64,000 bases of DNA from Solibacillus sp. FSL R5-0449. Lineage in GTDB: Bacteria; Bacillota; Bacilli; Bacillales_A; Planococcaceae. The notes beneath the pieces were generated by a model, which had not been told where the DNA came from, made no database searches, and worked only from the letters and a program-made list of their open reading frames with translations. The translations under genes and the position numbers were made by a program. The stretch is from assembly GCF_037975215.1 (NCBI RefSeq), contig NZ_CP150239.1:534001-598000 (forward strand). Direction: 5' to 3'. This document shows positions 11,095 through 34,980 of this stretch, piece after piece; position 1 is the stretch's first letter, and each line of letters opens with the position of its first letter.

Positions 11095-11210
11095 CGTGCA
11101 CATATATAGCTGACCTCAACACATTACGTATGTAGTGACATATTCGGGCTATGTAAGGTGCAGTTCGAAAATACTCTGTTCCGGATGGTTCAGGGCGAGA
11201 GGAGAAAACG
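11095..11210 (+). promoter_or_regulatory. structured 5' leader of rpmE, possible L31 autoregulatory leader
   Basis: About 125 nt separate the promoter from the start codon. TGCAC plus ATATAGC near 11097-11110 can pair with GCTATGT plus GGTGCA near 11150-11163, enclosing a smaller stem (CACATTAC/GTAGTG). Autoregulatory leaders for L31 have been described in Firmicutes; that this is one is inference from position and foldability. Confidence 0.35.
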
Positions 11211-11478: not shown

Positions 11479-11651
11479 TTATTAGAAGGGATTACGCAGT
11501 TATTAGAAAATTTATATAGGTTATTAGACAATCTGAAACGTTTATTTGAAAATTGCGACCGGATATTAGAAGATGTACATATTATATTAGAAGTTCCGAC
11601 TTTTATTAGAACAAATAAAAATATATTAGAAGAAACTAGAAGATATTAGAA
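11479..11651. repeat. 21-bp-phased array A (core TTATTAGAA, nine units)
   Basis: The core ATTAGA starts at 11481, 11502, 11523, 11544 (variant ATTTGA), 11565, 11586, 11605, 11625 and 11645. The first six are exactly 21 bp apart and the last three 19-20. Spacers between cores share nothing obvious. The array begins 20 bp after the rpmE terminator and fills the gap before tdk; no gene is visible in it. Confidence 0.85.
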
Positions 11652-12576: not shown

Positions 12577-13653
12577 ATGTTTGATCGTTTACAGGCGGTT
12601 GAAGACCGTTACGAAAGATTAAATGAATTACTAAGCGACCCGGATGTTGTGAGCGACTCCAATAAGCTTCGTGAATATTCAAAAGAACAATCCGATATTC
12701 AGGAAATGGTGGATGTCTACCGTGAATACAAATCGGTAAAAGAACAATTGGCAGACACACGCGAATTGATGGAAATTGAAAAAGATGCAGATATGCTGGA
12801 AATGATGAAGGAAGAGTTTAACGATTTAAATAAACAAGTTCCTGAGTTAGAAGATCGTCTGCGTATTTTATTAATTCCTAAAGACCCGAACGATTCGAAA
12901 AACGTAATTATGGAGATCCGTGGAGCTGCAGGCGGGGACGAGGCCAACATTTTTGCTGGTGACCTATTCCGTATGTATACACGCTATGCGGAAACGCAAG
13001 GCTGGAAAGTAGATGTAATGGAAGCAACACCAAACCCGGCAGGCGGCTTTAAAGAAGTGATTTTCATGATTAACGGTCAAGGTGCCTATTCGAAATTTAA
13101 ATATGAAAACGGCGCACACCGTGTGCAACGTGTACCAGCGACAGAATCACAAGGCCGTATTCATACATCAACTGCTACGGTAGCATGTTTACCGGAAGTA
13201 CATGTAGAAGATGTAGAAATTCATGAAAAAGATATTCGTGTTGATACATTCGCATCATCTGGTGCGGGTGGTCAGTCGGTAAATACAACGATGTCTGCGG
13301 TTCGTATGACCCACTTACCGACAGGCGTTGTCGTTTCGATGCAAGATGAACGTTCACAAATTAAGAACCGTGAAAAAGCGATGAAAATTTTAGTTGCGCG
13401 TGTAGCGGATAAACACCGTCAAGAAGCACAGGCAGAAATCGATGCAACTCGTAAGACAGCAGTAGGAACAGGCGACCGTTCTGAACGTATCCGTACTTAC
13501 AACTATCCACAAAACCGTGTAACAGATCACCGAATTGGTTTAACGATTCAAAAACTTGACCAAATCGTTGAAGGTAAGCTGGATGAAATCATCGATGCAC
13601 TTATTTTAGATGAGCAGGCAACACGCTTATCAAATTTGAATGAAGATGCATAA
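12577..13653 (+). CDS. prfA: peptide chain release factor 1
   Basis: Reads UAA and UAG at the ribosomal A site and triggers peptidyl-tRNA hydrolysis. The GGQ motif ([11 protein letters not shown], about residue 229) enters the peptidyl-transferase centre; the PAT tripeptide in [10 protein letters not shown] is the stop-codon reader typical of RF1. The N-terminal coiled region is rich in charged heptads; 358 residues. A promoter-like TATACT with a weak -35 (TAGCAA, 17 bp) lies near 12467-12495. The prmC start codon lies inside the 3' end, so the factor and its methylase are translationally coupled. Confidence 0.98.
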
Positions 13654-14503
13654 AACTATTTTTGAGGCCCTGAATGGGGCTTCTTCTTTTTTAGAGGAAA
13701 ACGGTCGCGAAGGAAATGCCGCACGAATTTTATTGCAGCATATTTTACAGACAAGCTACTCAGGATTAATGATGAAAATGCACGACACTTTACCCGAAGA
13801 TCAGCAACAGCAGTTTGATGCTTTTATCCAAGCACATGTGGAAGGACGTCCCGTACAGTATATAACGGGTGTCGAAGAATTTTACGGAAGGTCATTTTTT
13901 GTGGATGAATCGGTACTGATTCCTCGTCCGGAAACAGAAGAACTGATTGTTGGGACGATTGAGCGGATCCGTAAATTATTCGGTGATCAGGAAAACCTGA
14001 AGTTTGCCGATATCGGAACAGGCAGTGGTGCCATTGCCATTACGATGAAAAAGGAATATCCACAGCTTGATGTTACAGCAACGGATCTTTCACCTGCAGC
14101 ACTTGCAACAGCGCAAAAAAATGCTGAGCACCTGCAGGCAGAAATTACATTTAAACTCGGTGATTTAACAGAACCGATTGCAAATGAAAAATGGGATATT
14201 GTCCTTTCCAATCCTCCCTATATTGCCTATGGGGAAATGGAGGAAATGTCTGATGTCGTTGTGGCGCATGAACCTCATCAGGCATTGTTTGCCGATGAAG
14301 ACGGACTCTTGCTTTATCGTAAACTAGCAGAAAATTTACCATCTCTCATGAACAAGCCTGCATTAATTGGTCTGGAAATCGGTTATACACAAGGAGAAGC
14401 GGTAGCAAACTTTTTCAAAAAAAGCTTCCCCGATGCCCATGTATCAGTCGTACAGGATATAAATAAAAAAGATCGTATAGTTTTTTGTGAAATTAGTGAA
14501 TAA
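13640..14503 (+). CDS. prmC: release factor glutamine methyltransferase PrmC
   Basis: Methylates the glutamine of the GGQ motif of release factors using S-adenosylmethionine. The SAM-binding fold starts at [14 protein letters not shown] and the catalytic NPPY motif is in [14 protein letters not shown]; the N-terminal helical domain recognises the factor. Two starts are possible, ATG 13640 and ATG 13646, giving 14 or 8 bases of overlap with prfA; the choice is uncertain. A SigF-like promoter for spoIIR overlaps its 3' end. Confidence 0.95.
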
Positions 14504-14505
14504 AA
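14475..14505 (+). promoter_or_regulatory. candidate SigF promoter of spoIIR
   Basis: GTATA (14475-14479), a 16-bp gap and GTGAATAAAA (14496-14505) resemble the forespore SigF consensus (GYWTA, about 15 bp, GGNRANANTW). spoIIR is a known SigF target. Confidence 0.4.
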
Positions 14506-14546
14506 AATAGATTCCTTGTAAACAATGTTTGCAAGGGGGAATGTTT

Positions 14547-15143
14547 ATGTTACATGATTACGATATTCAAAATGAATCCAATCTATTTTTAGCGATTGCT
14601 AAATTACTAATAAGTGTCCTATTTTTATATTGTGCGGCTACATTTATACCTACTTTTGTAGATGATGTCCGCATTGATCAGGGGGAAAGCAATGACCAGT
14701 TAAAATTCCGCGTCATTGCCAACAGTTCGACAAATGCCGACCAGCTTATCAAATATGAGGTTGTGGAAACAATCCAAACCTATTTGCAAAATACACCTGA
14801 ATTTTCAGAAGATATCCACAGTGTGGAAAACATGTATCAGGAAATTCAGAATAATTACCCACAATTAGAAATTACCTATAAGTTTGGGGATAACTTAATC
14901 CCACCGAAATGGACGGCGGGTCAATTCTATCCGCAAAACGAATATTATTCAGTGAATTTCATTATTGGACAAGGGCGGGGCGAAAACTGGTTCTGTGCAG
15001 TGTTCCCAACGCTTTGTACAAACAATGAGCCAATGAAAAAAGAACGTCCGCCATTTTATGTTGCGGAATGGTGGAACAAATTTAAACAAAAAAATAATCC
15101 ACAAAAAGCAGAAAAAGATATACAAAATGCATTAAGTTACTAA
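14547..15143 (+). CDS. spoIIR: stage II sporulation protein R
   Basis: A signalling protein made in the forespore under SigF and exported to the intermembrane space, where it activates the protease SpoIIGA to process pro-SigE in the mother cell. An N-terminal hydrophobic segment (LLISVLFLYCAATFIPTF, about residues 20-37) is the export signal. The family signature WFCAVFPTLC lies near the C-terminus, after LKFRVIANSSTNADQ. ATG at 14547 is preferred over ATG 14541 because AAGGGGGA directly abuts the latter. A hairpin (CCTTGTAAAC/GTTTGCAAGG, 14513-14535) overlaps the ribosome site. Confidence 0.93.
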   Translation: MLHDYDIQNESNLFLAIAKLLISVLFLYCAATFIPTFVDDVRIDQGESNDQLKFRVIANSSTNADQLIKYEVVETIQTYLQNTPEFSEDIHSVENMYQEIQNNYPQLEITYKFGDNLIPPKWTAGQFYPQNEYYSVNFIIGQGRGENWFCAVFPTLCTNNEPMKKERPPFYVAEWWNKFKQKNNPQKAEKDIQNALSY

Positions 15144-15192
15144 CACCTTGGGGATAGTTACACGAAACATCTAGAGAAAGGAGGAAAAAGTA

Positions 15193-16224
15193 ATGCACAC
15201 TTTCCAATTGAATGTGGATGAGTTTGTGGATAATTCAGAAAATTATACACAGGCTGTGGATTTATTAAATAGCGGCGAAATAGTCGCTTTCCCGACAGAA
15301 ACCGTCTATGGCTTAGGAGCGGTTGCGACAAACGAGCAGGCCGTGAAAAAAATATTTGCTGCAAAAGGACGCCCTTCGGATAATCCTTTAATTGTCCATA
15401 TTGGTACAGTGGAAGAAGTAACGTTGTATACAACAAATATTTCAGAAGTTGCCCGCAAATGTATGGACGCTTTTTGGCCAGGTCCATTGACACTTGTTAT
15501 GCATGCTAAGCCGACTGTTTTAGCGCCAAGTGTAACAGCAGGTCTCGATACAGTTGGAATTCGTATGCCTGATCATCCGGTAGCACTGGAACTTCTTCAA
15601 ACATTAAAGAAACCGTTAGCCGCGCCAAGTGCGAATCGCAGCGGCAAACCTAGCCCGACGAAAGCCGAACATGTATTTGAAGATTTGCAAAAAATTATTC
15701 CTTGTATTTTGGATGGCGGAATGACGGGGATCGGACTTGAATCGACTGTTTTGGATGTTACGCTGGATACGCCGGTTATTTTGCGTCCGGGCGGTGTAAC
15801 GAAAGAAATGCTCGAAGCGGTAATTGGACCGGTTGTTGAGCCTAGTCTGGAGCAGCAGAAAATCGAATCGACACCGAAAGCGCCCGGCATGAAATATACT
15901 CACTATGCACCGGAAGCTCCTGTTTATCTAATTGAGGCAAATAAGGAAGCGATTGAAAAGGCTATTGCCGAATTAAAGCCGGAACATAAAGTTGCCTTAT
16001 TGGCACCGGAGAGCTTTAAAAACATTGAGGCCGATTATTATTTTTCATTCGGTAATGCCAATGATCTTGATCAAATGAGTGCTTCACTATATGATGCATT
16101 GCGTGCATGCGATAAAACGGATGCCACGATTATTTTAGCGACAGCAACATCAAAAACAGGTGTTGGCACAGCGATTATGAACCGTCTGGAAAAGGCGGCG
16201 GGCAGCAAATGGTATTTACTTTAA
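15193..16224 (+). CDS. ywlC: threonylcarbamoyl-AMP synthase (Sua5/YwlC)
   Basis: Makes the threonylcarbamoyl-AMP intermediate for the t6A modification at position 37 of ANN-decoding tRNAs. The N-terminal YrdC/Sua5 domain shows GEIVAFPTETVYGLGAVA, IFAAKGRPSDNPLIVHI and PLAAPSANRSGKPSPT. A linker with PGMKYTHYAPEAPVYL leads into the C-terminal Sua5 domain, so this is the long two-domain form (343 aa). ATG at 15193 follows AAAGGAGGAAAAA. It keeps the Bacillus order spoIIR-ywlC and has its own terminator at 16231. Confidence 0.95.
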   Translation: MHTFQLNVDEFVDNSENYTQAVDLLNSGEIVAFPTETVYGLGAVATNEQAVKKIFAAKGRPSDNPLIVHIGTVEEVTLYTTNISEVARKCMDAFWPGPLTLVMHAKPTVLAPSVTAGLDTVGIRMPDHPVALELLQTLKKPLAAPSANRSGKPSPTKAEHVFEDLQKIIPCILDGGMTGIGLESTVLDVTLDTPVILRPGGVTKEMLEAVIGPVVEPSLEQQKIESTPKAPGMKYTHYAPEAPVYLIEANKEAIEKAIAELKPEHKVALLAPESFKNIEADYYFSFGNANDLDQMSASLYDALRACDKTDATIILATATSKTGVGTAIMNRLEKAAGSKWYLL

Positions 16225-18664: not shown

Positions 18665-18840
18665 TTTCTAATAAGTGGCGGAGATTTTCTAATAAACGCG
18701 GGGAAGTTCTAATAAAATGCTGAACTTCCAATATATCCGTTCATTGTTCTAAAAAGCTGCTCGGATTGTCTAATAAAGGTGACGGAAGTTCAAATAAACG
18801 GGGCCGATTTTCTAATATCCGAAGTAGATCTTCTAATAAA
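18665..18840. repeat. 21-bp-phased array B (core TTCTAATAAA, nine units)
   Basis: The core TCTAAT starts at 18667, 18688, 18708, 18727 (TCCAAT), 18748 (TCTAAA), 18769, 18790 (TCAAAT), 18811 and 18832; spacings are 21, 20, 19, then 21 five times. The core is the reverse complement of that in array A (11479-11651). It lies just after the chemoreceptor terminator and before the cytochrome gene. Confidence 0.85.
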
Positions 18841-32052: not shown

Positions 32053-32419
32053 TACAGGAAATAGCTGCGGTTTTATTTCTTGTAAAGGGGAATAAATGTT
32101 TGTTTTCCACTACAAGAAATAAAAATTTCCTAGGAAATATTACAGGTTTGCAAAGTTACATGTTTTGGGTAGTTATTAAAGGAAGATACTTTTATGTGAA
32201 AATTTGTCTATTCACACTAAATAGTTACGCTGCGTATTATAATTTAATAGCCTTTTTAAACAAATTAGCTTAAAATAGTAATTTGGGTGCTTGAATTGCC
32301 GCCCTAATAAATGTAGTATATTTTTGTGTGTAAATTGAGTCAAATGAAGTTTAAAATAATTTAAGTTTAATTGAACTTATTCCTTTATTATATGAGAATT
32401 GAATTCGGAGGGACGAATT
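32053..32419. other. ywzB-murAA intergenic region
   Basis: No gene is visible in these 367 bases. They hold a 13-bp perfect inverted repeat with a 26-base loop (TTTATTTCTTGTA, 32072-32084, and its complement 32111-32123), which lacks a T-tract, then a perfect 14-bp palindrome ATTTCCTAGGAAAT (32125-32138), and a TATAAT near 32238-32243 that may be the murAA promoter. The palindrome would suit a dimeric regulator. Confidence 0.5.
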
Positions 32420-33721
32420 GTGGAGAGAATTATTGTTACTGGAGGTCAGACACTAAAAGGCACAGTACGCGTTGAAGGCGCAAAAAATGCTGTATTACCG
32501 ATTTTGGCTGCTTCTCTATTAGCTTCTAAAGATAAAAATATGATTAAAGATGTACCAAACTTAGCAGATGTCGGTACGATTGGTGAAGTGTTAAAAAGTT
32601 TAAACGCGATTGTCGAATACGATGTCGAGAAAAATGAAATGATGATTGATGCCTCTATGAAGCTATCTAGTGAAGCTCAATTTGAGTTTGTAAGTAAAAT
32701 GCGTGCTTCCATTTTAGTAATGGGTTCATTATTGGCACGTAATGGCTATGCACGCGTAGCATTACCAGGCGGCTGTGCAATTGGATCTCGTCCAATCGAA
32801 CTTCATTTAAAAGGCTTCGAAGCTATGGGTGCAGAGATTTCCTTTGGACATGGTTATGTCGAAGCTAAAGTAAAAGGTGAACTAAAAGGCGCAGAAATCT
32901 ATTTAGACTTCCCAAGTGTTGGGGCTACTGAAAACATTATGACAGCAGCATCTTTAGCAAAAGGGACGACGATTATTGAAAATGCAGCGAAAGAGCCTGA
33001 AATAGTTGATTTGGCAAACTTTATTAACGCTATGGGCGGCCGTGTAATTGGTGCCGGTACTGATACGATCCGTATCGAAGGCGTTAAAGAATTAAAAGGT
33101 TGCGAACATTATATTATTCCAGACCGTATTGAAGCCGGAACATTTATGGTAGCGGCAGCAATTACTCGCGGAGATGTTTTAATCGAAAACGCCGTACCAG
33201 AGCATATGACAGCACTAACTGCAAAAATGCGTGAAATGGGTGTAGAAGTTATCGAAGAAGATGAAGGCATCCGTGTGCGCGCAAATGACCCGTTAAAAGC
33301 GGTTGATATTAAAACGATGCCACACCCAGGTTTCCCGACAGATATGCAATCACAAATGATGGCATTAATGTTAACGGCAAACGGAACAAGTATCATTACA
33401 GAAACAGTTTTCGAAAACCGTTTCATGCATGTTGAAGAATTCCGTCGCATGAATGCTGATGCAAAGATCGAAGGGCGTTCTGTTTTCATTGAAGGCGGCA
33501 AAAAACTTCAAGGTGCCGAAGTATCAGCAACAGATTTACGTGCAGCAGCTGCACTGATCTTAACTGGTCTAGTATCTGAAGGCGTAACACGTGTTACAAA
33601 GTTACACCATTTAGACCGTGGTTATGTCGATTTCCACAAAAAACTAGCTTCTTTAGGTGCAATGATCGAACGCATCGATTCAGAAGAAGAAGTGTTACAA
33701 GAAATCGTTGTGACAGTTTAA
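32420..33721 (+). CDS. murAA: UDP-GlcNAc 1-carboxyvinyltransferase, main copy
   Basis: First committed enzyme of peptidoglycan synthesis. It opens [28 protein letters not shown] and has the catalytic cysteine in [24 protein letters not shown] (about C117). GTG at 32420 is the start because CGGAGGG lies eight bases upstream and it matches MurAA N-termini; an upstream TTG (32399) would put that site inside the gene. 433 residues. By synteny with spoIID it is MurAA, the major paralogue; MurAB is at 7084. Confidence 0.97.
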
Positions 33722-33752: not shown

Positions 33753-33790
33753 CAGAAAGTGAGATTTACGCTTTCTGGGTGCTTTTTTGT
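33753..33790 (+). terminator. terminator of murAA
   Basis: CAGAAAGTG (33753-33761) pairs with CGCTTTCTG (33769-33777), followed by GGTGCTTTTTT. Confidence 0.8.
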
Positions 33791-33810: not shown

Positions 33811-33967
33811 ATGTAGAATGATTCATGGAGAAAGTGGAACATAGCGCTGCAAAAGGAGAACGAAGCACTCTATAAGTAGAAAGTTCCGGCAGTAATGGAG
33901 AACAATCTACATCAAAAGTAGAACCCGGCGCTAGTAAAGTAGAATAACCTCATTCAAAAGTAGAGTC
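33811..33967. repeat. 21-bp-phased array C (core AAGTAGAA, eight units)
   Basis: The core GTAGAA/GTGGAA/GGAGAA starts at 33813, 33834, 33855, 33876, 33897, 33918, 33939 and 33960 (last GTAGAG): eight units at exactly 21 bp, with variable 13-15 bp spacers. It begins about 22 bp after the murAA terminator and ends about 80 bp before the spoIID promoter. Confidence 0.88.
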
Positions 33968-34044
33968 CTTTTATATCTCTCACTGTAGAGCTACTCCCCA
34001 AATCCGGTCCCGCAAAAAATAGAAATTCTCTCTCCAAATTGAAC

Positions 34045-34072
34045 TCATATTCTTCCTGTGTGTTCATATACT
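34045..34072 (+). promoter_or_regulatory. SigE-like promoter of spoIID
   Basis: TCATATT (34045-34051), a 13-bp gap and CATATACT (34065-34072) closely fit the mother-cell SigE consensus (KMATATT, about 14 bp, CATACANT). spoIID is a SigE gene in B. subtilis. Confidence 0.65.
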
Positions 34073-34077
34073 GTCTC

Positions 34078-34980
34078 ATGAAAAAAATTATCATTTTCTT
34101 TATCATTGGCGTCCTATTGTTTTTAGTCCCATTCACTTTAAAATCTAAGAAACAAACTTCCATTATTGAACAAACAGAATCTACTTCTTGTCCTTTATTT
34201 ATTAAAGTGAATAATACTGATGTTCCAATTGAAGATTATTTAATTGGTGTAATTGCAGGGGAAATGCCGGCAAGTTTCCATATGGAAGCTTTAAAAGCTC
34301 AGGCGATTGCCTCCCGAACTTATGTATTGAAGCAGACCAATTACGGAAAAAAGCCGATTCTCACAACGACAGCCCACCAAGTTTACAATGATCAGCAATT
34401 ACGAGAAGAAAAATGGAAAACTACTTTTGCCGAAAATGAAGAAAAAATAACAGAGGCCGTCAAACAAACCGCCAACCAAATTCTTACCTATAATGATGAA
34501 CTGATTACAGCCATGTTTCATGCATCATCCTTTCAATATACCGAGTCCGCGGAAAACTACAGCGGAAATCCGATTCCCTACTTAACAGCAACCACTTCGC
34601 CTGAACAATTAAACCAAGAACAGACTACTTATACATTTGAAGAGATCAATAAAAAACTTAAACAGAATTTCTCGAAGGCTCAGCTTCAAAATGCAAAACT
34701 GCAGCGAAATGACACGAACCGCATCGAGCAAATTACGATCAACAAAAAAACATGGCCTGGCAGAGAACTGCGCACACTTTTAAACTTGCGCTCAACGAAT
34801 TTCACATGGGAACCGTCAGCAACCGGTATAACGATTAAAACTTATGGATACGGGCATGGGGTAGGTATGAGCCAGCATGGGGCAAATACGATGGCACAGG
34901 GGGGAATAACGGCGGAAGATATCCTATCTCATTACTATCCATCGACTACAATAAAATCGATAAATTATTGTAAAAAATAA
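34078..34980 (+). CDS. spoIID: stage II sporulation protein D
   Basis: A membrane-anchored lytic transglycosylase of the SpoIID-IIM-IIP machine that remodels septal peptidoglycan during engulfment. An N-terminal membrane anchor (IIIFFIIGVLLFLVPFTL, residues 3-20) is followed by the SpoIID/LytB domain: PIEDYLIGVIAGEMPASFHMEALKAQAIASRTY, where the glutamate of GEMP is the catalytic acid, and GYGHGVGMSQHGANTMAQGG near the C-terminus. ATG at 34078 (300 residues) places the anchor at the N-terminus as in the family. Oddly, it lies only five bases past the SigE -10 and no Shine-Dalgarno is visible, so the message may be nearly leaderless. Confidence 0.94.
   Translation: MKKIIIFFIIGVLLFLVPFTLKSKKQTSIIEQTESTSCPLFIKVNNTDVPIEDYLIGVIAGEMPASFHMEALKAQAIASRTYVLKQTNYGKKPILTTTAHQVYNDQQLREEKWKTTFAENEEKITEAVKQTANQILTYNDELITAMFHASSFQYTESAENYSGNPIPYLTATTSPEQLNQEQTTYTFEEINKKLKQNFSKAQLQNAKLQRNDTNRIEQITINKKTWPGRELRTLLNLRSTNFTWEPSATGITIKTYGYGHGVGMSQHGANTMAQGGITAEDILSHYYPSTTIKSINYCKK

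Follow-up and report, generated by a model that had tools for sequence, protein, structure and literature searches.

Intergenic arrays phased at 21 bp across the family Planococcaceae

Introduction

Why should eight copies of a short core follow one another at exactly 21 bp in the gap between two genes? Such a series, designated array C, lies in the window, by which we mean the whole stretch of 64,000 nucleotides of the Solibacillus sp. FSL R5-0449 chromosome analyzed here. The initial annotation saw in its perfect register and divergent spacers an argument for selection on spacing, and proposed comparing indels with substitutions as a check. We examined the locus, its counterparts elsewhere in the genome and in related species, and the readings that might account for a fixed 21-bp step.

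Results

Array C (33813..33965, + strand) consists of eight G-class cores (AAAGTAGAA and variants) starting at 33813, 33834, 33855, 33876, 33897, 33918, 33939 and 33960. The annotated positions were confirmed in the sequence, with 7 of 7 steps measuring 21 bp. Read in order, the cores are GTAGAA, GTGGAA, GGAGAA, GTAGAA, GGAGAA, GTAGAA, GTAGAA and GTAGAG; the GTAGAA core originally described is exact in only 4 of 8 copies, with the remaining 4 of 8 being variants. The array begins ~92 bp from the stop codon of the upstream gene (32399..33721, +), an ORF that, from its sequence and the atp-murA-spoIID gene order, we take to be murA (UDP-GlcNAc enolpyruvyl transferase). It starts in a G-rich stretch 3' of what reads as a likely intrinsic terminator of murA (33753..33790, +; CAGAAAG...CTTTCTG plus a T run). 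It ends shortly 5' of an ORF (34039..34980, +; start at the ATG at 34079, MKKIII...) that matched one distant relative and is presumably a spoIID-like gene. An ATAGAA at 34019 sits 59 bp beyond the last core, approximately the 19 + 20 + 20 of the T-array tail described below, and the array detector joined the corresponding AATAGAA (34018..34024, +) to array C by a step of 80. As read from the sequence, this may be a decayed tail core of the array.

A period scan of the window, in which a chain had to comprise four or more sites differing from TAGAA by no more than one base, returned three chains at 21, namely arrays A, B and C. No TAGAA-like chains occurred in the window at any other fixed period between 15 and 39, and 30 dinucleotide shuffles of the window gave zero clusters. 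The sole Rfam match over the window, an L31-Firmicutes ribosomal protein leader at 11174-11204, lies just 5' of the gene preceding array A and is unrelated to the arrays. Coding DNA can give a lag-21 signal too: the one at 1719-1884 of the window apparently stems from a coding acidic repeat rich in GAAGAAGAT.

Array C belongs to a large set. Pattern searches and detection in sampled stretches of the same genome (G000) revealed at least 50 arrays with 598 units, array counts being lower bounds. The pattern TAGAA-N16-TAGAA-N16-TAGAA had 121 exact matches genome-wide versus 0 for the reversed control pattern. Two core classes were distinguished: T (TTATTAGAA; consensus [GT][AT]TATTAGAA[CG]A[TA][CT]T), to which arrays A and B belong, and G (AAAGTAGAA; consensus AAAGTAGAA[CA]NTTT), to which array C belongs. 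Core columns are near-invariant and spacers are free, with position-specific bias in spacer columns. Over all 598 units, 366 steps were 21 bp, 63 were 20 and 39 were 19 (102 for 19 and 20 together), and 2 were 22.

The shorter steps are not scattered. Gap-free alignment of T elements gives one shared register of nine sites, with five 21-bp steps followed by 19, 20 and 20, so that the 19- and 20-bp steps occupy fixed places in the tail; site 4 is usually a TATTTGAA variant, and longer elements are extended by a further block on the 5' side, with a gap of 81-82 bp. Array A (11482..11651, +) has the register 21, 42 (=21+21), 21, 21, 19, 20, 20 and array B (18666..18836, -) the register 21, 21, 42, 21, 19, 20, 21, both with orthologues in four congeners (G007, G005, G008 and G003). 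In G arrays, runs of 21 bp are interrupted where superunits meet by a step of 19 bp, or of 40 if a weak core intervenes; these arrays contain superunit duplications of 124, 145 and 166 bp and vary strongly in length. Several arrays of this genome, e.g., L039 and array C, also grade from G-rich at the 5' end to C-rich at the 3' end, in one example from 26 G versus 3 C in the first quarter to 8 versus 14 in the last.

Placement follows a pattern. Most arrays lie directly 3' of terminators, where the flanking genes are convergent or co-directional, and in this genome the first core follows the stop codon at a median distance of 82 bp. Of 47 arrays, 36 run the same way as their upstream gene; 14 of 47 lie between convergent genes, 2 of 47 between apparently divergent genes, and 9 of 47 are antisense to both neighbors. 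As array direction is largely that of the genes, a replication-arm signal of the KOPS type seems less likely. Along the chromosome (dnaA at C1:331) arrays are unevenly spread: they crowd into 0.13-2.0 Mb and 2.6-2.9 Mb, whereas 400 kb sampled elsewhere contained a single one (L436, ~3.308 Mb). Those of G008 are likewise unevenly clustered.

Comparison with congeners set array C apart from the T arrays. All 11 of 11 arrays compared in a ~200 kb stretch have an orthologous array in G007, and T arrays retain their register at orthologous sites. Rates were pooled from nine pairwise comparisons of three T arrays, G012 not included. Substitutions affected 22 of 630 core positions (3.5%), 209 of 905 spacer positions (23%) and 232 of 1362 flank positions (17%). 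Indels numbered 2 per 1,535 aligned array bp versus 37 per 1,362 flank bp (0.13 versus 2.72 per 100 bp), making them ~20-fold rarer in T arrays than in flanks. Indels per substitution were 0.009 in T arrays versus 0.159 in flanks (p = 3e-8, an optimistic value because the pairs share the G000 branch and are not independent; p-values are indicative only). The proposed indel check, carried out here between species, thus came out in favor of selection on spacing for the class, as represented by T arrays including A and B. It did not do so for array C by itself. The orthologue of array C in G007, the nearest relative, has steps of 21, 20, 43, 21..., a 1-bp slip with compensation; in G005 and G003 the array is mostly lost, with fragments remaining; in G008 it has about tripled to 21 units in superunits over ~460 bp; and in G010 and others the murA-spoIID gap is merely 137-200 bp. 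The absence of slippage reported earlier therefore holds in this genome and breaks down at the same locus in relatives. Because its register varies in relatives, the perfect register of array C in one genome is not proof of spacing selection on C, apparently a labile and degenerate representative of its class.

The class extends across the family. At least one TAGAA triple was found in 97 of 151 family genomes, the low counts among these (some 1-3, with similar control counts) being coding or chance. Strong cases carry clade-specific core extensions such as GCGCTCATAGAA, GAATAGATAGAA, TTTCGGTAGAATAAAT and GTGACGGATAGAA, and in genera g4 and g8 the control pattern itself uncovered more array families, built on different cores. 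An autocorrelation scan made without reference to any core, over 339 kb in 17 family stretches partly chosen where arrays were already known, found 28 regions at lag 21 (at least one of which, L391, looks coding), 8 at lag 42 and 0 at other lags from 14 to 60. The same scan found 0 regions in 78 kb of array-poor congeners and, in 359 kb of other families of the class Bacilli, four lag-21 signals consisting of 2 masked N runs and 2 coding-like repeats; the families sampled outside this one thus showed no arrays. The period of 21 is constant while cores differ between genera and between array families inside one genome. In the searchable literature, mostly open-access, we found nothing that describes such arrays in these bacteria.

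Architectures elsewhere in the family are varied. In genus g8 (L398 of G064, 12900-15750), tandem modules of ~230 bp contain five graded 21-bp units (GTTCGTTAGATAAG ... AATCATCAGATAG) and are separated by constant GC-rich hairpins. An inverted core copy closes arrays of genus g4 (L354, L351, L358), with the palindrome GAGCGCTCATAGAATTCTATGAGCGCTC in L354. In arrays of genus g2 (L348, L349, L353), the units are preceded by a common 5' boundary, GTTTCCATAA.A.GACTTC, and the 3' boundaries, which end in CGCTCA, are alike as well. An array in genus g14 (L350 of G070, 1458-2800) runs to well over 1 kb with an 82-bp superunit and is much longer than any detected in the Solibacillus genome.

Discussion

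On balance, we consider it probable that the arrays are phased sites for one or more oligomerizing, sequence-specific DNA-binding proteins with a same-face, two-turn geometry. Invariant cores, free spacers, a near-forbidden step of 22 and a period of two turns together suggest that a protein oligomer lines one face of the helix, and core turnover at constant period suggests a fixed geometry with changing recognition. Underneath lie the observed periodicity, dispersal, constraint on cores relative to spacers, T-array indel depletion and conserved positions, along with the absence of a coding or RNA-structure signal; from these we infer that a protein binds, that its target is double-stranded DNA and that it oligomerizes. 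Each array would be a track of sites for a putative protein oligomerizing along one helix face, with a core of ~9-15 bp as recognition site. The 21-bp step, two turns of B-DNA, would put successive subunits or dimers in line and in contact, and of the 5-8 bp between cores length alone would matter. The core classes, T and G here and others elsewhere, may be read by paralogues or diverged orthologues with the same oligomer geometry. Where the step shortens to 19 or 20 bp, in the 3' tail of T arrays and between superunits of G arrays, the complex could have a defined end or turn.

Known nucleoprotein systems offer partial parallels. ParR binds parC as directly repeated sites of about two turns, e.g., the 20-bp repeats of pSK41, and Clostridium perfringens has several ParMRC families (PMC9426499). 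The arrays resemble parC in their direct repeats of roughly two turns and, under our proposal, in having related proteins with different recognition in one cell. However, parC is a single plasmid locus beside parM and parR, whereas here dozens of chromosomal arrays are dispersed, array C lies between the presumed murA and spoIID genes, and no partner gene was found; we reject a ParMRC centromere on these grounds. RemA, a ring-forming protein, occupies repeated, poorly conserved sites at the Bacillus subtilis eps promoter (PMC8481266). Those sites have a 10-bp period (7 protected plus 3), lie at promoters, and are AT-rich with no fixed core, unlike the arrays with their 21-bp period, fixed core and position at gene 3' ends; a RemA-type promoter array does not fit. 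A CRISPR array is also rejected, requiring identical repeats of at least 23 bp, unrelated spacers and cas genes, whereas the arrays have a variable 6-9 bp core, a 21-bp step and biased spacer columns.

Among alternatives, the one that survives best holds that the arrays are old mobile interspersed repeats, MITE- or BOX-like, whose cores are sites for a transposase or other mobilizing enzyme and whose relics are tolerated at gene 3' ends. T elements at different loci are 70-81% identical, and two are still 81% identical over 326 bp, which points to an ancient spread of these elements from a common ancestor. A dispersed family with homologous modules, the defined boundaries in other genera and the modular expansion of arrays agree with such an origin. 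BOX modules fold into RNA stem-loops, and boxB measures ~45 bp. REP/BIME elements of enterobacteria are extragenic palindromes that form mosaic clusters at gene 3' ends and are associated with REP-associated tyrosine transposases. Placement at gene 3' ends and between convergent genes is as in BOX and RUP, and BOX of Streptococcus pneumoniae and S. suis is likewise a modular, old and slow-moving intergenic repeat with variable internal units (PMC3049150). The arrays share its modularity, variable unit number and location, and the conserved ends in genus g2 and modules in T elements might correspond to BOX-type A and C ends around B units; they differ from BOX in their 21-bp unit, conservation of the core alone and lack of a fold signal. 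Like REP/BIME they are extragenic, mosaic and at gene 3' ends, but they are direct repeats, not palindromes, and array-rich G008 and G012 lack Y1/REP-type transposases (Y1_Tnp), which leads us to reject a REP/RAYT system. Against mobile repeats more broadly, the 11 shared positions in G007 give no sign of recent insertion, and relics should lose the core and spacing constraint that is present here. Simple inspection by eye disclosed neither a perfect terminal inverted repeat in this genome nor a target duplication, the empty sites of relatives being too diverged to read, and arrays of genus g4 do end in an inverted core. Similarity searches of plasmids and phages with three arrays gave zero matches. 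In scans of viral contigs for the triple patterns almost all of the matches listed were single, as by chance or coding, and carry no information on this point. While past mobility is likely, mobile relics as the whole account seem to us unlikely.

An RNA element, in which the array would form a 3' extension of the transcript and carry an RNA-binding protein every 21 nt, would accord with the prevailing co-orientation with the upstream gene and with the G-rich to C-rich composition. Yet arrays begin 3' of the terminator, some are antisense to both neighbors, and the 8 tested strands gave no folding signal, remaining within 1.2 sd of shuffles (z -1.2 to +1.2), which also disposes of a BOX-type stable stem-loop RNA. 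Nor is it obvious why flexible single-stranded RNA should keep a strict 21-nt step with free spacers, a step that equals two turns of DNA. We rate an RNA element as distinctly improbable. Neutral VNTR growth by slippage, with the even step as leftover register, could draw on the superunit duplications of G arrays, but in dozens of unlinked arrays, and between species, cores are fixed and spacers diverge, 22-bp steps are almost absent, and lag 21 alone is enriched in many genera with unrelated cores, leaving slippage very improbable. Least credible of all is a coding remnant, in which 21 bp would be seven codons and TTA GAA CAA TTG nnn nnn TTA a coiled-coil heptad (LEQLxxL-like in T units, VExFxxK in G units): for this genome it was rejected on the lack of stop depletion in plausible frames beyond column-shuffled expectation (one nominal P below 0.001 fell in a frame full of stops), the three in-frame stops in array C, and the conserved 19, 20, 20 steps that break frame.

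Phased protein-binding tracks are our preferred reading, with the reservation that neither a binding protein nor a co-occurring gene came to light, that the arrays partly resemble an old dispersed repeat family and that selfish spread could explain their presence even with protein bound. Whatever the function, it is dispensable, since TAGAA triple matches are few or absent (0, 0, 1, 4 and 8) in 5 of the 16 species of the genus; G000, G003, G005, G007 and G008 are array-rich, and G010, G011 and G014 array-free. Given the location of arrays at gene 3' ends, after terminators, our guess is that organizing the chromosome or stopping read-through is a likelier role than control of promoters. We tentatively raise the broader possibility of a lineage-specific, chromosome-wide nucleoprotein system in the family, in which paralogues with a common two-turn geometry and fast-changing recognition would coat intergenic tracks at gene ends, with several independent track families per genome. 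For bacterial intergenic repeats it is unusual that a 21-bp step should outlive complete turnover of the motif, as it does here across many genera and for several families within a genome. From this we predict a family of oligomeric DNA-binding proteins with rapidly evolving specificity, for which the arrays would serve as ready bait.
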